From Gemmatimonadota bacterium (GTDB taxonomy: Bacteria > Gemmatimonadota > Gemmatimonadetes > Gemmatimonadales > Gemmatimonadaceae): DNA of 53,794 bases. Every line of letters starts with the position of its first letter. Position 1 is the first letter of the stretch. Where the stretch lies: positions 1 through 53,794 of the forward strand of contig JAJPIS010000085.1 of assembly GCA_021324635.1 (NCBI GenBank), read 5' to 3'. Of the stretch, positions 9,243-53,794 are shown piece by piece. Position numbers and translations under genes: made by a program. Under the pieces are notes generated by a model that had not been told where the DNA came from, did no database searches, and saw nothing but the letters and a program-made list of their open reading frames with translations.

Positions 9243-9281
9243 GGTGCAGGGGCAATTCGCGTCGCGAATTGCCCCTGCACC
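9243..9281. repeat. Long perfect hairpin, variant arm sequence (19-bp arms, 1-nt loop)
   Basis: The left arm at 9243-9261 (GGTGCAGGGGCAATTCGCG) and the right arm at 9263-9281 are exact reverse complements around a single T. Compared with the other three copies the arms differ at several bases (TGCA for GTCA, AATTCGCG for AATCGC), yet every change is matched on the other arm. Confidence 0.9.
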
Positions 9282-9453: not shown

Positions 9454-9492
9454 GGTGTCAGGGGCAATCGCGAAGCGATTGCCCCTGACACC
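9454..9492. repeat. Long perfect hairpin (18-bp arms, loop GAA)
   Basis: The left arm at 9454-9471 (GGTGTCAGGGGCAATCGC) and the right arm at 9475-9492 pair perfectly around GAA. The arms are identical to those of the copies at 16148 and 29885. Confidence 0.92.
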
Positions 9493-16034: not shown

Positions 16035-16700
16035 GTCGGGGCGGCATTCATGCCGCGCGCGACTCACATCGCGCGCCGATGCCTGGCCCGGCATTTCGCG
16101 CGGCCCACCCGCGTCCCGCGGCGACCAAAGGAAGGGGTTTATTGGACGGTGTCAGGGGCAATCGCTTCGCGATTGCCCCTGACACCGGGAACGGCAACAA
16201 CGGACGCGGGATGCGGCACCGTGGCGGCGTGCGGACGGTGCGGGATTGCCCTGGCACCGGGGACGGCACCGACGGCGCGGGGTGGGGTCGGCGCCCTGAT
16301 CACGGGCGGCCGTGTGGGTGCCCAACCACCAACGACGGGGGGGGGCATCGTGATGCCCCGTAGGGGCGGCATTCATGCCGCCCGCGCCTCGCATCCCGCA
16401 CGGATGCCTGGTCCGGCATTCATGCCGCCCGCGACCGGCATCCCGCACCGATGGCGGCCGGCCGGCGATGCCGCCCCGGGTGCGGCATTCCGCGCCCGCG
16501 CCGGGCGCCGTGCATGCCGAACGGCAACGGCGACGGCGTGAAATGACGGGCCAGACATCGGTGCGAAATGGGAGCAGCGGGCGGCATGAATGCCGCCCCT
16601 ACGGTGGCCGCGGGATGCGGGCCGTGGGACGTGCCGAACGGCGAACGGCGGGCGGCATGAATGCCGCCCCTACGCCGGGGCGGCCTGCGGCCGCCCCTAC
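16035..16700 (+). repeat. Repeat island 2: modular REP-like repeats, both orientations
   Basis: From 16035 to about 16367 the sequence is a direct copy of 9344-9674, interrupted by small indels and substitutions. A further GTAGGGGCGGCAT module follows (16360-16460). Two inverted copies then appear, at 16579-16602 and 16648-16673 (GCGGGCGGCATGAATGCCGCCCCTAC), and a related GGGGCGGCCTGCGGCCGCCCC hairpin ends at 16700. No gene is present; short reading frames through it merely translate the repeats. Confidence 0.85.
16148..16186. repeat. Long perfect hairpin (18-bp arms, loop TTC)
   Basis: The arms are identical to those at 9454 and 29885, but the loop is TTC, the reverse complement of GAA. This copy therefore looks as if only the hairpin had been inverted within otherwise same-oriented flanks. 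Confidence 0.92.
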
Positions 16701-29884: not shown

Positions 29885-29923
29885 GGTGTCAGGGGCAATC
29901 GCGAAGCGATTGCCCCTGACACC
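29885..29923. repeat. Long perfect hairpin (18-bp arms, loop GAA)
   Basis: Identical to the hairpin at 9454-9492, arms and loop. The left flank (GGAACGGGGTTTGTTGGAT) and right flank (GGGAACGGCAACAACGG) are also the same. Confidence 0.92.
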
Positions 29924-45970: not shown

Positions 45971-46585
45971 TCACCGGAGCGCTCGCCAGGCCCAGACGAG
46001 ACGCTGCCCCACGGTCACCGCCACCAGCGCCGCCATGATCGAGAACAGCACCGCCAGGTGGGCTGGGAAGAGCAGGAACAACGCGTAGAACACGATCGTC
46101 TCGGCGCCGGCCACGACCCCGTCGGGCATGGTGACCGCCGTCGGCCGGTCCGCCGCCATCCCCGCGCGCGCATCGGCCTGCCGCCGATCGAGGATCGCCG
46201 CCAGGTACATCCACGATGCGGCGTTGACGTAGAAGCTCGCGAGCAGCGCCAGCGCCGCCCGGATCGCCCCGACGCTCGGACGCCCGGCGACGAGCGCGAT
46301 CGGCAGGGCGGCGTACACACCGAAATCGAGCAGGATGTCGAGGTAGCCGCCGAAGTCGGTCTGTCGCCCACGCACGCGCGCCAGCGTCCCGTCGACCCCG
46401 TCGAGCGTCCGGTTGAGGAGCCAGCAGGTGAGCGCGACATGATATCGCCCCGACCAGGCGGCGGCCGCGGCTCCGCCGCCGACGGCGAACGCGATGACCG
46501 ACAGGACGTTGGGGTGCACCGGAACGCGCCGGAGCGCGGGGCCCAGCAGACGGTCCTTGAGTCCGCGCAGCCAGCGATCGAACAC
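45971..46585 (-). CDS. CDP-alcohol phosphatidyltransferase (YnjF-like)
   Basis: An integral-membrane phosphotransferase that joins a CDP-activated lipid or alcohol to an acceptor. The 204-residue product has about six helices and the complete signature D-x2-DG-x2-AR-x8-G-x3-D-x3-D (LDGVDGTLARVRGRQTDFGGYLDILLD, about 61-86), so it should be active. It starts with GTG 46585, 37 bp after the ABC ATPase stop, on the same strand. E. coli YnjF, of nearly the same length, lies beside ynjBCD in the same way, and this gene is likely its counterpart. The acceptor alcohol is unknown. The gene ends six bases from the convergent recQ stop. Confidence 0.9.
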   Translation of the reverse strand: MFDRWLRGLKDRLLGPALRRVPVHPNVLSVIAFAVGGGAAAAAWSGRYHVALTCWLLNRTLDGVDGTLARVRGRQTDFGGYLDILLDFGVYAALPIALVAGRPSVGAIRAALALLASFYVNAASWMYLAAILDRRQADARAGMAADRPTAVTMPDGVVAGAETIVFYALFLLFPAHLAVLFSIMAALVAVTVGQRLVWAWRALR

Positions 46586-46622: not shown

Positions 46623-47741
46623 CTATCGGAGCGGAAACACGGACACGTCCCGCGCGTCGACCGTCACCGGCAGGATATCACCGATCGCCGGCACCGCGCC
46701 GGGCAGCACCTGGAGCTCGACGGATGTCGGCCACGCCGGCGGGTCGGCCGATGTGCCCTGTCCGTCGCGGCGGACGAGCAGCTCGCCGACCGCGGTCGTC
46801 CGCTGCGCGTGGTACCGGAGACCCGTGATGCGGAGCGGCACCCCGCCGGCCGCTGGGCGAACGGCGTCCGCGCGGCACAGCCCGATGGCAGGGCCGCAGG
46901 GGAGGGCCGGCGCCGGTCGCAGCCGCCCGAGTGGCCACTCGAAGGTGCCGTCGGCGAGCACGTGTCCCGGCAGCTCGTTCGCGAACCCGAGGAACCGCGC
47001 GACCGCCAGAGTGGGCGGGTGGCCGAAGAGCGCCGACGGCGGCGTGCCCGCCGTGAGCCGGCGGTCGAGCAGGACCGCCACCCGGTCGGCCAGGAGGCCC
47101 GCATCATCGAGATCGTGCGTCACGAGCACGACCGCCGGACGATCGACGTGTTGGACGTCGAGGATCGCCTCCCGTACCTCCTCCCGGAGCCCGGGATCGA
47201 GCGATGAGAGTGGCTCATCGAGGAGCAGCACCGAGGGCCGGGCCGCCATGGCACGTGCCAGCGCGACCCGATGCCGCTGGCCGCCGCTCAGCGTCTGCGG
47301 GGACCGGGCGCCGAAGCCGGCGAGCCGCACCGCCGCGAGCATCTCCGGGACGCGCCGCTCGATCTCGGCCCGGCCGAGCCCGCGGACGCGCATCGGGAAC
47401 GCCACATTCTCGAACACGGTGAGGTGCGGAAAGAGCGTCGGGACCTGGTGCAAGTACACCGCGTCGCGGCGCTCGGGCGGGAGCGCCGACACGTCGCGGC
47501 CGCCGATCACGACCCGGCCGGCGGTGCAGGGGACGAGCCCGGCGATCGCCCGGAGCAGCGAGGTCTTCCCGGCCCCGGACGCGCCGACGATGGCGAACCG
47601 CTCGCCCGCGGCGACCGAGAGATCGATCTGGGCGAGCCCCGCATGTGATCCGAACGACACCGCGAGACCGCGCACGTCGAGCGCACCGTTGGCGGCCGGC
47701 GCCGGGAGCGGCCGATCGGGAACGCCGCCGGGCGCCGTCAC
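46623..47741 (-). CDS. ABC transporter ATP-binding protein (YnjD-like, PotA/FbpC type)
   Basis: ATPase of a binding-protein-dependent importer. The 372-residue product has Walker A GASGAGKT, Q-loop LHQVPTLFPHLTVFENV, signature LSGGQRHRVALARAMAARP, Walker B VLLLDEPLSSLD and H-loop VTHDLDDA. A C-terminal about 130-residue beta domain (TOBE-like) follows that is absent from the short E. coli YnjD. GTG 47741 overlaps the permease stop as GTGA. It is the last transporter gene of the operon; the phosphatidyltransferase follows. Confidence 0.92.
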   Translation of the reverse strand: MTAPGGVPDRPLPAPAANGALDVRGLAVSFGSHAGLAQIDLSVAAGERFAIVGASGAGKTSLLRAIAGLVPCTAGRVVIGGRDVSALPPERRDAVYLHQVPTLFPHLTVFENVAFPMRVRGLGRAEIERRVPEMLAAVRLAGFGARSPQTLSGGQRHRVALARAMAARPSVLLLDEPLSSLDPGLREEVREAILDVQHVDRPAVVLVTHDLDDAGLLADRVAVLLDRRLTAGTPPSALFGHPPTLAVARFLGFANELPGHVLADGTFEWPLGRLRPAPALPCGPAIGLCRADAVRPAAGGVPLRITGLRYHAQRTTAVGELLVRRDGQGTSADPPAWPTSVELQVLPGAVPAIGDILPVTVDARDVSVFPLR

Positions 47742-48661
47742 GCCGACACTCGAGTCGGCGCCGAAGCCGGGGCCGAAGCCGGCGCCGGGGCCGAAGCCGG
47801 GGCCGGGGCCGAAGCCGGGGCCGATCCGCGCACGAGGCGAGCGCTCGCGACCAGCAGCAGCACGATCGGCAGCAGGATCAGGAGCAGCGCCGCGGCGGCG
47901 GCGAAGCGCGTCTCCCCCGCCTGCACATAGCCCATGACCTCCAGCGGGAGCGTGTGGACCCGTCCGCCGCCGATCACCAGCGTGAGCGGCACCTGGCCCC
48001 AGGAGACGAGAAATCCCAGTCCCACGCCCGCGCCGAGCTGCGGGCGGAGCGTCGGAAGCGTGACCCGCAGCCAGACCTGGCGCGGCGACGCCCCGAGCGA
48101 GCGGGCCTCGTCATCGAGCCGCGTATCGTAGGCCGTGAACACGGCGAAAAAGAAGAAGGACAGCACGCCGACCGCGGGGACGAGGTGCGCGAGCACGACG
48201 CCGACGGGCGTGCCGGCGAGCTGCGCGCGCACGAACGTGAGTTGGAGCCCGGTGGCGACCGCGATCGGCGGCGCGGCTGCCGGGAGCACGGCGGCAGCGA
48301 CGGCGACGTGCCGGGCCGCGCCGTGCAGCCGCGCCAGCGCCCGCCCGATCGGCGCCGCGAGTACGCACCCGACCACGCCGGTCGTCAGACCGAGGACCAC
48401 GCTCGTTCCGACCGCGCGCGCGAGCGGACCGCGCCGGACGACGGCCGACCAGGCGTCGGCGGTCCAGCCGGTCGGCAGCAGCGCCGGATAGAACCAGCTC
48501 TGGCTGGCCGAGAGCATGGCGAGGAGCGCCGGCGGCCCGACGGCGGAGATGACGAGGAGCGTCACCATCGCGAGACGGACGCCGCGCCAGCCGGGCGAGG
48601 CGCCGGTGGCGACCGGGATCGGTGCCGCCGTCGTGCGGCCGGGCACCGGCGCGTGGGTCAC
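47738..48661 (-). CDS. ABC transporter permease, second half (YnjC-like)
   Basis: A 307-residue membrane protein from GTG 48661 (GTGA overlap with the previous permease; a frame starting at 48694 would overlap by 37 bp). It has about six helices and the EAA loop LDDEARSLGASPRQVWLRVTLPTLRPQ. It ends in an Ala/Pro/Ser tail (SAPAPASAPAPASA...) encoded by a hexamer repeat. In E. coli both permease halves are fused in one YnjC; here they are separate genes. Confidence 0.9.
   Translation of the reverse strand: MTHAPVPGRTTAAPIPVATGASPGWRGVRLAMVTLLVISAVGPPALLAMLSASQSWFYPALLPTGWTADAWSAVVRRGPLARAVGTSVVLGLTTGVVGCVLAAPIGRALARLHGAARHVAVAAAVLPAAAPPIAVATGLQLTFVRAQLAGTPVGVVLAHLVPAVGVLSFFFFAVFTAYDTRLDDEARSLGASPRQVWLRVTLPTLRPQLGAGVGLGFLVSWGQVPLTLVIGGGRVHTLPLEVMGYVQAGETRFAAAAALLLILLPIVLLLVASARLVRGSAPASAPAPASAPAPASAPASAPTRVSA
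47757..47828. repeat. Hexamer repeat in the permease C-terminal tail
   Basis: Alternating GGGGCC and GAAGCC hexamers with one GGCGCC. On the coding strand these read as Ala-Pro and Ala-Ser dipeptides, so changes in copy number stay in frame. Confidence 0.8.
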
Positions 48662-49518
48662 GACCGCAGGCGCTCCGCCCGGGCGCGCGTCCACTCGAAG
48701 ACCGCCACCGCCGCCAGGCCGAGAATGAGACCCAGGAGCGTGAGCACGAACCCATCACCGCGGAGCGTGAGGTCGAGCGCCTGATACCGCTCGTAGGTGG
48801 CGACGGCGAAGGGAAGCGGGTCGGTGGGGCCGAGCAGGGCTGCCCCCTCGTACGTCCCGGCGATGAAGATGAACACGAGGACAACCGCCGGAGCGAGGCC
48901 ACGCCAGAGGAGCGGAACCGTGACGCGACGCAGCGTCGCCGCCGGACTCGCGCCCAGCGTGCGGGCCGTCTCCTCGAGCTGCTGGCCGCGCGTGGCGAGC
49001 ACCGAGACGGCGACGAACGTGAGGAAGGGCACCTCCTTCCACGCGAACGTCAGGATGAAGCCGAGGCCCGGGCGGTCGAGCACGAGCGGTGGGAACCCCG
49101 ACGGGTCGTGAATCACACCGGCGGCCGCGGCCAGACGCGCGAGCAGGCCGCTCTGACCGAGGACGAGCACCGCGCCCGCCGCGGCGACGACGTAGGGGAT
49201 CGGGAAGGGCACGAGCGCGGCGATGCGGGCCAGGCGGTCACCGATCCCCGTGCCGCGGAACCCGATCGCGACAGCCACCGCCGCGGCCGTGGCCAGGGCC
49301 GTGGCCAGCGCGGCGGCGTAGATCGTCCACGCGAGCCCGCGCCAGACGGTCGCGTCTCGCATGACCCGGTCGATGTGAACGAGCGAGAGCCCGCGAGCAG
49401 CCGGCCCGGCGAGCCCGATCGCGGCGGCCGCCGAGTAGCCCAGCCCGACGACGACCGGCGCGGCCACCAGTCCGGCGAGCGCGGCGCCCGGAGCGGAGCC
49501 GCTCGCGCGTGCGGTCAC
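48658..49518 (-). CDS. ABC transporter permease, first half (YnjC-like)
   Basis: A 286-residue membrane protein with about six helices and the EAA loop LEETARTLGASPAATLRRVTVPLLWRG. It has the binding-protein-dependent transport inner-membrane fold. GTG 49518 overlaps the binding-protein stop as GTGA and its own stop overlaps the next GTG. Pairs with the second permease to form the channel. Confidence 0.9.
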   Translation of the reverse strand: MTARASGSAPGAALAGLVAAPVVVGLGYSAAAAIGLAGPAARGLSLVHIDRVMRDATVWRGLAWTIYAAALATALATAAAVAVAIGFRGTGIGDRLARIAALVPFPIPYVVAAAGAVLVLGQSGLLARLAAAAGVIHDPSGFPPLVLDRPGLGFILTFAWKEVPFLTFVAVSVLATRGQQLEETARTLGASPAATLRRVTVPLLWRGLAPAVVLVFIFIAGTYEGAALLGPTDPLPFAVATYERYQALDLTLRGDGFVLTLLGLILGLAAVAVFEWTRARAERLRS

Positions 49519-50891
49519 GGTCCGCTCCGGAGCGCGGGGCGGGTGGTGCGCGACTCCGGGTCGCCGCCGGCCGAGGGGTGCTCCGTGGTGCCCGTGCGGA
49601 CGTGCGTCCGCCAGTCGCTCTGGAGAAGCTCCGAGTAGCGCGGCGATGCCTCGGGCTCGGCGTACCGTGCCAACGTGTCACGGGGCACCTGCCGCGCGTC
49701 GGCCGGGAGGCGGGCGAAGCGGCGGGCCCATTCCGGCGGCAGCCGGTCGACGGCGAGCACCGACCCGTCGCCCCACCCGTCCGGTCGGGCCTTCTCGAGC
49801 TGTGCCTCGGGGGACAGGAGGACATTCGCCACGACCATCGCCCCGGCGGCGTTGGGCGCGTTGAACGGGATGGCGACGAAGTGGGCGTTGGCGAGCGCGC
49901 CGTCGCGGAGCACGTACGCGCGCGACGTCGCGGGCAGAGCACCGTCGCGGACCTTGCTCACGACCTCGTTCTCGTTGTACGACATCGCGAAGTCCACTTC
50001 CCGGTTGGCGAACAGGTGCTCGAGCTGCGCCACCCCCTGCGGATAGGCGGCACCATGACGCCAGAGATCGGGGCGGGCACGGGCGAGCCAATCCCACAGG
50101 CGGGCGCTGGCCGCCACGTACCGCGCGCTGTCGAAGGGGCCCGTGAAGCGCGAGGCGCCGCCGCCGAGGTGGATCATGAGGCCGGTGAGGAAGGCGAGAC
50201 CCGTGAACCCCTGGTCGTAGGTGAAACGGCCCGGGTGCGCATGGACCCAGTCCGCGAGGGCTTCGTACGTGCGCGGCGGCTCCGGCGTGCGCGTCGAGTC
50301 GTAGATGAGGGCCAGCTCGACGCGCCCCCATGGCGACTCGTAGCCGGCGGGGTCCTCACCGAAATCGCGCGCCACGATCGGGGAGGCCGTGTCGACGAGG
50401 GCGGCGGCCGGGAGCGATCGCGCCCACGGCCCGGCGAGCAGCCCTTCGCGGCGCAGGTTGTGAAAGGTCTCGCCGTTGATCCAGAGCAGGTCGGCCGTGC
50501 CGACCGTTCGCCCCGCCTCGCGCTCCACCACGAGCGCGTTCAGGATTGCCGGACCCTGCGCGTCGACCGGGTCGAGCGTGATGCCGTAGCGCATCGCGAG
50601 GCGTGGCGCGAGCCACTCGTCCACGTAGTGGTTGATGGCGGGGTCGCCGCGCCAGAGAAGCCACCGCACCGTGCTGCCGCGCGCGCGGGCGACGACGCTG
50701 TCCCACGGCATCCGGGCGAGCGCGGCGGCGCTCGCCAGGCCGGGCGTGACTCCCCGCGTGACTCCCCGCGTGGCATCCCGCGTGGCATCCCGCGTGGCAT
50801 CCCGCGCCGCCGCGCGGTGCCCGCAGGCGGCCGCCGCGAGCATGGTGGCCGCGGTGGCCGCGGTGACCGCGCGCGCCGCGGCGCGGGTCAG
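49515..50891 (-). CDS. ynjB: YnjB-type ABC substrate-binding lipoprotein
   Basis: A 458-residue product is read from the CTG at 50891, which overlaps the TonB-receptor stop as CTGA. The n-region LTRAAARAV and lipobox AAAAC fit a lipoprotein. No ATG, GTG or TTG is available in frame between that point and the signal; the only ATG (in ATMLAAAAC) leaves too short a signal. The binding domain shows LLWRGDPAINHYVDEWLAPRLA, VGTADLLWINGETFHNLRREGLLAGPWARSLP, ESPWGRVELALIYD, PGRFTYDQGFTGLAFLTGLM and DFAMSYNENEV. The LWINGE...LLAGPW...LP segment is characteristic of E. coli YnjB. A DATR/GVTR repeat linker follows the lipid Cys. The ligand is unknown (thiamine-like compounds have been proposed for the wider family). 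Confidence 0.88.
   Translation of the reverse strand: MTRAAARAVTAATAATMLAAAACGHRAAARDATRDATRDATRGVTRGVTPGLASAAALARMPWDSVVARARGSTVRWLLWRGDPAINHYVDEWLAPRLAMRYGITLDPVDAQGPAILNALVVEREAGRTVGTADLLWINGETFHNLRREGLLAGPWARSLPAAALVDTASPIVARDFGEDPAGYESPWGRVELALIYDSTRTPEPPRTYEALADWVHAHPGRFTYDQGFTGLAFLTGLMIHLGGGASRFTGPFDSARYVAASARLWDWLARARPDLWRHGAAYPQGVAQLEHLFANREVDFAMSYNENEVVSKVRDGALPATSRAYVLRDGALANAHFVAIPFNAPNAAGAMVVANVLLSPEAQLEKARPDGWGDGSVLAVDRLPPEWARRFARLPADARQVPRDTLARYAEPEASPRYSELLQSDWRTHVRTGTTEHPSAGGDPESRTTRPALRSGP
50745..50804. repeat. Perfect 12-bp repeat (5 copies) in the lipoprotein linker
   Basis: Two CGTGACTCCCCG units are followed by three CGTGGCATCCCG units, all 12 bp. They encode Asp-Ala-Thr-Arg three times and Gly-Val-Thr-Arg twice, immediately after the lipid-anchored Cys. 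Confidence 0.9.
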
Positions 50892-53641
50892 AAGTGATAG
50901 CGAGCGGAGAATTGGAGTTGCCGTGGCGGCCCCGCGATGAGGTACGTGACCGCGTCCCCCGGCCGGCCGACCTGCGTCCGCGGGTCGACCCCGGCGAGTC
51001 CACTCGGGAACCCGGACTCGTTCACGCGGTTGAGGAGATTGAGGGCGTCGGCGCGGAGATCGATCCCCCGCCGCCCGAAGGGGAGCGTGTAGCCGACGCT
51101 GAGGTTCAGCGTCACCGCGTCGGGCAGGCGCCCGCTGTTGCGTCCCACGCCGAAGTATCGATCGGCGTTCCGCACGAATGCGTCGCCGTAGGCCGGGCCC
51201 GAGCCGTTGAGATCGGCGCCGGCGACCCAGTTGATGGGCGTGCCGGTCTGGTAGTCGAGGATGCCGCCCAGGGTGAGCCGGTCGCTCAGGCGGTAGGTCG
51301 AGCGGAGGTCGACCTTGTGCCGGCGGTCGTTGATCGCGTCCGCCCACTCGCGCGCGAAGTCGTTTCCCTGGGTGGCCGCGAAGTTGATGTCCTCGGTGTT
51401 GTCCTGGATGTGGGACCAGACCCACGTCAGATCGGCCGACCACGCGGCGGTGAGCTGGTGCCGTAGGGTCGTGGACAGCCCGAAGTAGTGCGACGTGCCG
51501 CCGGTATTCGTGGTCGTGTGGGCGCGGAAGCCGCCGGGCTGCGGCGTCACGGGCCGATGCTGATCCCCGAACGAGGTCGGCCGTCCCGCCGAGTCCGCGG
51601 GGCCGAGGATGTACGAGTCGGCGTTGAGATCCCAGAGCCGCGGGAGATCGAACGTGTACGAGACGACCCCGTCCACCGAGATCCCCCACCGCCGGGCCAG
51701 CGCCACCTCGTACCCGAGCGCGCCTTGATAGCTCCGCGGGCTCCGCAGCCCCTCGGCGAAGCGCGCGCGGATCTCGCGCGGCGGCTGGCTCTGGACGGCG
51801 CCGGCGACCGCCGACGGGGCCGGCGCGTTGCCGTACGTGACCGTCGCGTCGCTCCCACCGCCCTGCGAGCCGAAATAGGTGACCGGCGTCGTCCCGCCGG
51901 GGCCGAATTGCAGGGCGTCGGAGTAGATCGTGTATGGCAGCTTGCCGGCATAGATGCCGACCCCGGCGCGGAGGGCGCTCGCCGGCGTCACGGACCAGTT
52001 GGCCGAGAGGCGCGGCTGGACGACGGTGAGGTCTGGCCGGCCCCCGTGTGCCGTGAGGTCATCGTAGTCCCAGCGCAGCCCGTACGTGAGCGCCAGCCGG
52101 CGCACGGGATGCCAGAGGTCCTGCGCGAAGGCGCTGACGATCGACTGCGCAGCCGCGATGCGCTGCGGCCGAGCGTCGATCCCCCAGCTCTGCACGGGAT
52201 ACCCACGCGGGATATCGGCGATGGACAGATAGCGGCCGGAGGGATGGATCCCGCCAGTGTCGTTGACGACGTAGAAGCCGCCCAGGCTCGTCTGGTCGCC
52301 TCGGAGCCGGAACGTGCCGCCGATCAACTCGGCGCCGACCTGCACCGTGTGCCGGCCGGCCCGACGCTGGAGCACGTCACGCAGGTCGACCTGGAGCTCG
52401 TGCTCATCGTACTGGAAGGCGCTCGAGCCGACCTGCGCGATCGGCGTGCCGGTCCCGGTCGCGTTGAACAGCACGACGGTCGGCTCGCTCAGCGAGGCGC
52501 GCGTCGGCGGATAGAACCAGTGGTACGTCGCGACCTGCGCCGACGCGGTGTTGGTGAGGCCGCCGTCGGGCGCGCCGCTCCGGTGCGTCACGCCATAGAT
52601 CCCGCCGATGCGGTGCTGGACGTTGTCCGCCTCGGGGACCACGAAGCCGCCTCCACGCCCCACGAAGTTCTCATCGCTGTAGGCCGCGCGCGCGGTCGTC
52701 ACCTGGGTCGGGCTCCACGCCTGGTCGAGCCGAGCGAAGCCCTTGTACTTCACGCGCTCTGCCGAGCCCAGGCCACCGGCAAAGCCCGGCGTGACGATGG
52801 GCTGGTCCTGCGACTCGTCGGTGTACTCGCCGGCGGCGAAGAGCCGCGTGCGCCCCCGCACGATCGGTCCGCCCGCCGATCCCGCGAGCTGGACGCGCCG
52901 GAAGCCGGCCGCGGTCGTGTTCGGCAGCGTGCTGTTGATGTCGGGCACTCCGATCGCCGGTCGGGCGTCGAAGCCGCCGCCCGGGCGCCCTTCGATGACG
53001 GCATCGCCGTGCCACTCGTCCGTCCCTGCCCGGGTGATGAACGCGACGACGCCGTTGGAGCTACGGCCCATCTCGGCGCCGTACGTGGTCGCACGAACGT
53101 CCACCGCCGCCAGCGCGCCGATCGGTAGGTCGACCCGCGGTCCGCCCAGGACGCCCTCGTTGTCGTCCAGGCCATCGATCACGTACTGCGTGTAGAGCGA
53201 GTTCTGCCCGTCGATGGTGAGCACGGGCGCCGTGTCGTAGAAGCCGGTCGCTTGCGCGACCCCGGGGACGGTGAAGGTGAGGGCCAGCGGGTCGCGCCCG
53301 TCGGTCGGGAGCGCCCTGAGCTCCAGCGAGTCGAGCGCCCCGCCGGTCGCGGCGCCGACGTGCTCCACGAGTGGACGCGCCGAGGCGCGTTCAGCGTGAA
53401 CCTCGACCGGCTGCAGGGTGGCGGGCGCGGCTGCGGACGAGCGCGCGGGCGGCGTGGCCGGCGGGCGCCGGCGACGTCCTGCCGCCGGACGCGCCGGCGG
53501 GGTCGTGTCGGCTGCCGCAGCGGTCGGCCGGGCCGCGGGCACGGGGGCCTGCCCCCGCACCGCCGGCGTGGTGAGCGCGATCGCGACGAGGCCCACCGCG
53601 GCGGGCGCGGCGAGCGAGCACAGGGTCGAGTGGGATGCCAT
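50888..53641 (-). CDS. TonB-dependent outer-membrane receptor
   Basis: A 917-residue receptor from ATG 53641. It has a signal peptide (MASHSTLCSLAAPAAVGLVAIALTTPAVRGQA), then a Pro/Ala/Arg-rich linker. The plug domain is at about 100-220 (RDPLALTFTVPGVAQATGF, SLYTQYVIDGLDDNEGVL, VDVRATTYGAEMGRSSNGVVAFITRAG), and a long beta-barrel ends in RQLQFSARYHF, with a C-terminal aromatic. I did not see a clear TonB box or a carboxypeptidase-like N-domain. GTG 53671 is an alternative start, but it would run through a palindrome. It is the first gene of the transporter operon and should import the ligand of the YnjB-like protein across the outer membrane. Confidence 0.9.
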   Translation of the reverse strand: MASHSTLCSLAAPAAVGLVAIALTTPAVRGQAPVPAARPTAAAADTTPPARPAAGRRRRPPATPPARSSAAAPATLQPVEVHAERASARPLVEHVGAATGGALDSLELRALPTDGRDPLALTFTVPGVAQATGFYDTAPVLTIDGQNSLYTQYVIDGLDDNEGVLGGPRVDLPIGALAAVDVRATTYGAEMGRSSNGVVAFITRAGTDEWHGDAVIEGRPGGGFDARPAIGVPDINSTLPNTTAAGFRRVQLAGSAGGPIVRGRTRLFAAGEYTDESQDQPIVTPGFAGGLGSAERVKYKGFARLDQAWSPTQVTTARAAYSDENFVGRGGGFVVPEADNVQHRIGGIYGVTHRSGAPDGGLTNTASAQVATYHWFYPPTRASLSEPTVVLFNATGTGTPIAQVGSSAFQYDEHELQVDLRDVLQRRAGRHTVQVGAELIGGTFRLRGDQTSLGGFYVVNDTGGIHPSGRYLSIADIPRGYPVQSWGIDARPQRIAAAQSIVSAFAQDLWHPVRRLALTYGLRWDYDDLTAHGGRPDLTVVQPRLSANWSVTPASALRAGVGIYAGKLPYTIYSDALQFGPGGTTPVTYFGSQGGGSDATVTYGNAPAPSAVAGAVQSQPPREIRARFAEGLRSPRSYQGALGYEVALARRWGISVDGVVSYTFDLPRLWDLNADSYILGPADSAGRPTSFGDQHRPVTPQPGGFRAHTTTNTGGTSHYFGLSTTLRHQLTAAWSADLTWVWSHIQDNTEDINFAATQGNDFAREWADAINDRRHKVDLRSTYRLSDRLTLGGILDYQTGTPINWVAGADLNGSGPAYGDAFVRNADRYFGVGRNSGRLPDAVTLNLSVGYTLPFGRRGIDLRADALNLLNRVNESGFPSGLAGVDPRTQVGRPGDAVTYLIAGPPRQLQFSARYHF

Positions 53642-53648
53642 CGCTCCA

Positions 53649-53670
53649 TGAAGATATGCACATATCTTCA
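53649..53670. promoter_or_regulatory. 22-bp AT-rich palindrome upstream of the TonB-receptor gene, candidate operator
   Basis: TGAAGATATG (53649-53658) and CATATCTTCA (53661-53670) are exact reverse complements separated by CA. It ends seven bases before ATG 53641. Such an AT-rich 10-bp dyad is exceptional in this GC-rich sequence. It could be a repressor site or an mRNA hairpin covering the start; no regulator gene is nearby. Confidence 0.6.
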
Positions 53671-53761
53671 CGTCCCGCCGGGCGGCTACGCCGTGGGACC
53701 CCGCGGACGCCGGGGAACGGGGGCCGGGCGATCGGCTCGACCGGTGCGTCGGGGGCTGTCA

Positions 53762-53794
53762 GGGCGGTCGGGGCGGTCGGGGCGGTCGGGGCGG
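53762..53794. repeat. 9-bp tandem repeat at the window edge
   Basis: GGGCGGTCG is repeated three full times plus a partial fourth; the array may continue beyond the window. Confidence 0.8.

Follow-up and report, generated by a model that had tools for sequence, protein, structure and literature searches.

Just ahead of a gene for an outer-membrane receptor, in an otherwise GC-rich Gemmatimonadota genome, lies a short AT-rich dyad, and the question that it raises is what it does there and which protein, if any, recognizes it. We analysed the whole stretch of 53,794 nucleotides, here called the window, together with related genomes. The reading that we favour, with a probability of roughly three in four, is that a dedicated repressor of the ArsR/SmtB type uses the dyad as its operator, acting over the receptor promoter.

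Symmetry, rarity and position of the dyad

The features of the dyad and of the genes behind it are as follows:

53649..53670, no strand: perfect 10-2-10 dyad, TGAAGATATG-CA-CATATCTTCA, proposed ArsR operator
53647..53672, no strand: extended, imperfect 12-2-12 inverted repeat, 11/12 pairs
50888..53641, minus strand: outer-membrane beta-barrel / TonB-dependent-type receptor, first gene behind the dyad (PF25183, E=1.2e-49; PF00593, E=4.9e-06; orthologues in relatives)
49515..50843, minus strand: YnjB-type periplasmic binding protein (NF008633, 407.8 bits, cut-off 203; start codon placed by eye)
48658..49518, minus strand: ABC permease, first of two (PF00528)
47738..48694, minus strand: ABC permease, second of two (PF00528)
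46623..47741, minus strand: ABC ATPase (PF00005, E=1.5e-33)
45971..46585, minus strand: CDP-alcohol phosphatidyltransferase, YnjF-like (PF01066)

The exact position of the dyad was verified in the window sequence; outward of its 10-bp arms, pair 11 is mismatched and pair 12 is paired. With up to three mismatches, no second copy was found in the window (0.00 expected from 100 shuffles) or, with the two central bases left free, elsewhere in the 4.09-Mb assembly; five weaker partial matches in this genome all lie inside ORFs. In 325 kb of the genome, the dyad is the only match of at least 16/22 to its own 22-mer and one of three places matching at 14/22 or better. A 311-kb sample, made up of the window and 20 contig starts, has a GC content of 70.9% and contains the hexamer TATCTT five times on both strands, two of these being the arms of the dyad. 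It also contains 11 dyads with arms of at least 7 bp and at least five A/T per arm, namely that of the window, a GC-richer hairpin repeat in six copies, a parS-like palindrome of 24 bp, a GC-rich one of 33 bp (L044), and two with 7-bp arms. The dyad clearly exceeds what chance would give. The position check and the shuffles thus bear out what an earlier note on this DNA had described, a perfect palindrome with 10-bp arms at 53649-53670, and base composition and the scarcity of TATCTT agree with its remark that so AT-rich a dyad stands out in GC-rich DNA. A general use of TATCTT as the -10 hexamer in this genome was not borne out: two of the five occurrences in the sample are ahead of an in-frame start, one of them that of the window.

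Among the other repeats of this genome, closely similar hairpins with arms of 18-19 bp (GGTGTCAGGGGCAATCGC type), REP-like or terminator-like in appearance, are scattered at window positions 9243-9281, 9454-9492, 16147-16187 and 29885-29923, at L035 2373-2411 and at L039 156-194. The perfect 24-bp palindrome, CCGATGTTCCACGTGGAACATCGG, is situated at 6177-6200 of L037 (G000:C3) and resembles a parS chromosome-partition site.

The receptor ORF as called mechanically opens at GTG 53671 and would thus take in the dyad. The gene more likely starts at an ATG in the same frame, at 53641, with what by eye looks like a signal peptide behind it; the dyad would then be in a 44-bp gap ahead of it, 8-29 nt upstream of this ATG. 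The gene-strand arm contains CATATCTT, which is probably the -10 element of a receptor promoter whose position we likewise infer.

The gene ahead of the dyad and its product

The window, contig C11 of the assembly, ends 124 bp past the dyad, within a short tandem repeat that forms part of a second gene:

53686..53794, minus strand: 3' end of arsR, stop TAG at 53688-53686; the remainder very likely on contig C126, from C126:33850
53762..53794, no strand: tandem repeat with a 9-bp unit, (GGGGCGGTC)n, coding for Pro-Asp-Arg in the tail of arsR; the same unit at the end of C126

Allowing one mismatch, this end repeat occurs in the genome only at the ends of C11 and C126. The arsR frame runs from C126 through the repeat, where it is unaffected by the copy number because the unit is 9 bp long, and stops 15 bp before the dyad. 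On C126 a gene for an MscS channel is divergent from arsR; MscS homologues occur in three cluster loci of genus g4 (L021, L024 and L025, the L024 match being short, with 108 residues and E=4e-5) and are missing from the 16 remaining loci searched. Additionally, the relative G430 carries arsR, the site, the receptor gene and the genes for YnjB, permeases and ATPase on one contig. The shared end repeat, the continuous frame, the MscS homologues at the g4 loci and the single-contig order in G430 make it very likely that C126 joins C11, with arsR directly ahead of the dyad. The order would thus be arsR, its stop codon, 15 bp, the dyad, and the genes for the receptor, YnjB, the two permeases, the ATPase and the CDP-alcohol transferase.

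The arsR product matches PF01022 (E=2.5e-15, 56.5 bits against a cut-off of 22) and NF033788 (84.2 bits against 55), and ArsR/SmtB structures top the Foldseek list for its predicted fold (pLDDT 82, seven sequences). By these profiles and this model, the regulator is a winged-helix protein of the ArsR/SmtB family. An extra C-terminal beta hairpin is predicted with low confidence. Metal-sensing members of the family carry ligand motifs, CxC in alpha-3 and DxHx10Hx2(E/H) in alpha-5; both are absent from all nine orthologues (the G000 and G322 sequences being cut by contig ends), and other metal sites are possible. Among solved structures, SqrR (6o8k, 38%) and BigR (3pqj, 35%) are some of the closest in sequence and fold. 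The cysteine pair of the SqrR type is absent from the nine orthologues, which have 0 to 2 cysteines each, at positions 43-68 only; one of the two SqrR/BigR/SoxR cysteines aligns with Leu31 of the window protein and the other falls in the C-terminal part. The window protein reaches 56 bits with the BigR model, below its cut-off of 155.

Two features of individual orthologues may be added. Long basic or repetitive C-terminal tails are found in several, Lys-rich in G357 and G306, Arg-rich in G429 and with the Pro-Asp-Arg repeats in G000, the genome of the window (arsR 3' ends of L185 and L186; L138 14212-14244). Genes for SoxY and an MBL protein adjoin arsR in G430 and G131, and G430 has a rhodanese gene as well; a sulfur link of this ArsR is only a lead.

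Orthologues of the window ArsR, searched with a profile at E<=1e-20, are rare. Counting the genome of the window itself, matches were found in 6/394 genomes of the class, 7/288 of the order and 7/395 of the phylum, nine genomes in all. The receptor gene follows arsR in six of the nine (G000, G052, G072, G430, G306 and G357). For two others, G322 and G429, the contig runs out at arsR or shortly behind it, and a gene for a CDP-alcohol transferase is divergent from arsR; the last, G131, has the orthologue without a receptor. In G000, G430 and G306 the receptor gene is followed by a YnjB gene, and in G357 one starts where the contig ends; G052 and G072 have no YnjB gene, the CDP-alcohol transferase gene being situated behind the receptor.

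The site in relatives and its possible roles

We searched the 170 bp behind arsR in the relatives for the dyad, comparing each score with 2000 dinucleotide shuffles. The 22-mer was fixed beforehand from the earlier note, whereas the bounds of a 14-bp core were chosen after the alignments had been viewed. The aligned gene-strand site cores and the test results are:

G000 (window): ATATGTGCATATCT
G052: GGATGAACATATCT; 22-mer 16/22, p=0.0005; core p=0.027
G072: GGCGGAACATATCT; 22-mer 16/22, p=0.0005; core p=0.0045
G306: ATATGTACATATTT; 22-mer 15/22, p=0.0015; core p=0.0005
G357: TTATGTCCATATCT; 22-mer 14/22, p=0.011; core p=0.0005
G430: ATATGTAAATATCT; 22-mer 12/22, p=0.45; core p=0.002

A related AT-rich site is therefore present in the gap between arsR and the receptor gene in 5/5 relatives by the core and in 4/5 by the 22-mer, G430 fitting by the core alone; the best placement found by the test itself departs from the aligned core for G072 and, with the 22-mer, for G052. 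A 21-mer variant gave p=0.27 for G430 and, with a shortened segment, p=0.027 for G306. In an alignment of G052 and G072, the site is within a well conserved block of the gap, and so is a GGATGCATCC block. Symmetry is perfect only in G000, and G052 and G072 retain one clear half-site. G000 and G052 read through the site in the same receptor frame, and G072 and G306 in different ones; the conservation of the site is thus not accounted for by protein coding.

The controls were 10 upstream stretches from nine cluster loci without a window-type arsR (L019-L027; L018 and L028, whose contigs end before the cluster start, are omitted), and the site was absent from all of them (p 0.117 to 0.994 with the 22-mer, 0.22 to 0.999 with the core). 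It was also absent behind the G131 arsR, which has no receptor gene (p 0.94 and 0.61, respectively). One of the control loci, L026, has a different ArsR, 46% identical, ca. 3 kb beyond the receptor. A family-wide scan gave matches in 5/98 other genomes and in four for the reversed control, by count a background level, although one of the five (G072) lies behind an arsR orthologue. No palindrome akin to the dyad was found before the family receptors in the fetched relatives, because these lack the window-type arsR; the comparison excludes the best 80 of 300 YnjB loci from a wider contig scan. Of the two kinds of support that the earlier note had asked for, further copies in the genome did not turn up, and conservation upstream of orthologous receptor genes did where the same ArsR gene precedes them.

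These controls bear on a rival account, in which the AT-rich block is nothing but the core promoter of the receptor gene, with TATCTT as the -10 hexamer and a nearly leaderless message, its symmetry being accidental or giving rise to a bidirectional promoter, and no repressor being involved. The resemblance of CATATCTT in the gene-strand arm to a -10 hexamer is in its favour, and so is the presence of TATCTTCC a few bases ahead of the ATG in genus-g4 receptor genes that have no arsR (L024, L025). However, the longer element goes with arsR and is found in 0/9 cluster loci without it, and TATCTT is uncommon ahead of genes in the 311-kb sample, so we consider this account unlikely; besides, the two readings are compatible, as an operator may cover the -10 element.

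Dyads of about 20 bp are used by many regulator families, and binding by the linked ArsR is deduced from context, which leaves room for a regulator encoded elsewhere, e.g., of the TetR, GntR or MarR type. Against it, the site accompanies the window-type arsR across families f1, f2 and f7, and a regulator acting from elsewhere should have further sites besides the single one in this genome, where the weaker matches all fall within ORFs; such a regulator is thus quite improbable. We give still less credence to an RNA hairpin in the arsR-receptor message controlling translation or processing. The window RNA does fold over the dyad just before the start codon (61 nt, -22.2 kcal/mol, z=-1.72), but in G052, G357, G306 and G430 the corresponding RNA shows no unusual stability (z -0.25 to +1.19; G072 left out) while the DNA motif is kept, and the window has no Rfam match at the gathering score that would suggest a riboswitch.

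There is more doubt about which protein binds than about the element as a conserved regulatory site: the 22-mer test is negative in G430, only G000 has the symmetry in perfect form, and no convincing site precedes arsR itself in 8/9 orthologues, the exception being G306 (14/22, p=0.005), so that the usual self-control of ArsR proteins is not seen. Binding of the dyad by ArsR is nevertheless the reading that the sequence context suggests. The earlier note had proposed ligand-responsive repression; its regulatory site is likely, with a dedicated ArsR gene adjacent and a related site in relatives, while the ligand response and the sign come from analogy with the family. Repression, rather than activation, is likely because a dedicated ArsR-family gene adjoins the site.

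The arrangement is most simply read as a repressor lying over the promoter, because the dyad lies so close before the ATG, its arm contains a possible -10 element and 12-2-12 operators are known near or over transcription starts. ArsR/SmtB repressors such as SmtB, ZiaR and AzuR are described with imperfect operators of this kind (PMC8790569), though the repeat is not used by every ArsR (PMC7965956). An ArsR dimer would bind the 12-2-12 repeat over the receptor start region, covering the probable -10 element and excluding RNA polymerase. An effector, most likely the imported compound or its product, would then bind the dimer, and effector-bound ArsR would release the DNA, allowing transcription of the import cluster.

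The import cluster and comparison with known systems

The YnjB-family protein, which scores above the NF008633 cut-off, and the order of the permease and ATPase genes identify the cluster as encoding a YnjBCD-type ABC importer. Clear YnjB matches (E<=7.4e-56) exist in 11/98 other genomes of the family and weak ones in four more; the 11 loci fetched around the clear matches contain several or all of the remaining cluster genes. The YnjB gene is absent from G017 and G044, siblings within the genus, hence there is no close-species comparison.

Some of these loci have a different setting. In genus g24 (L022 6660-7582; L023, L027), genes for an ECF-like sigma factor (sigma-70 regions 2 and 4) and a zf-HC2 anti-sigma-like protein, assigned by Pfam for L022 only and by eye for L023 and L027, precede the receptor-Ynj cluster in place of arsR; the type of control of this cluster seems to change between genera. 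In G091 (L020 5602-7006), msrA and a gene with a VTT/DedA domain run divergently to the cluster, and the intergenic region contains an imperfect AT-rich dyad, CTTAGCATGA-C-TCATGCTTAA, with 8/10 pairs. Genes of the DedA family, ydjX and ydjZ, adjoin ynj in E. coli too.

In E. coli K-12, ynjB, ynjC, ynjD, ynjE (for a sulfurtransferase) and ynjF (for a CDP-alcohol transferase) lie together, and the cluster here shares its kinds of genes with this region. The window YnjB is 38% identical to that of E. coli, its CDP-alcohol transferase is 37% identical to YnjF, and the rhodanese near the G430 cluster is 26% identical to YnjE. Unlike ynjBCDEF, the window cluster is headed by an outer-membrane receptor gene and arsR, and its permease is encoded by two genes. 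In the 10 kb around ynj in E. coli K-12, the annotation shows neither such a regulator nor such a receptor.

Well-known ArsR regulators with defined operators mostly act on detoxification genes. The one described here appears to be linked with an uptake cluster; in E. coli, the counterpart of this cluster carries only the annotation of a putative transporter. The regulator, its single strong operator and a reporter would offer a direct route to screen for the importer substrate. In a search of open-access literature, we found no description of an ArsR paired with a TonB-dependent receptor, with YnjB or with Gemmatimonadota. We suggest, tentatively and with more doubt than confidence, that the nine ArsR proteins form an undescribed subfamily, with a predicted extra C-terminal beta hairpin and without known metal or thiol ligands, that would sense the organic or sulfur-linked cargo of this orphan importer and control its passage through both membranes. 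If so, finding their effector would hint at what ynjBCD transports; in E. coli, too, this system has only a putative annotation.

The sulfane-sulfur sensors SqrR, BigR and SoxR have a conserved cysteine pair in common (PMC10451225). The window ArsR belongs to the same family and is close to them in sequence and fold but, like its orthologues, is without this pair. With SmtB, ZiaR and AzuR it shares the small winged-helix fold and an imperfect 12-2-12 repeat near a predicted promoter. It differs from them, as do its orthologues, in having neither the CxC nor the alpha-5 metal motif and, in eight of the nine, no convincing site for self-control, and its predicted target is an uptake cluster instead of efflux or metallothionein genes. 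The kind of switch is thus known, and this member, with an uptake cluster as its target, appears to be undescribed.
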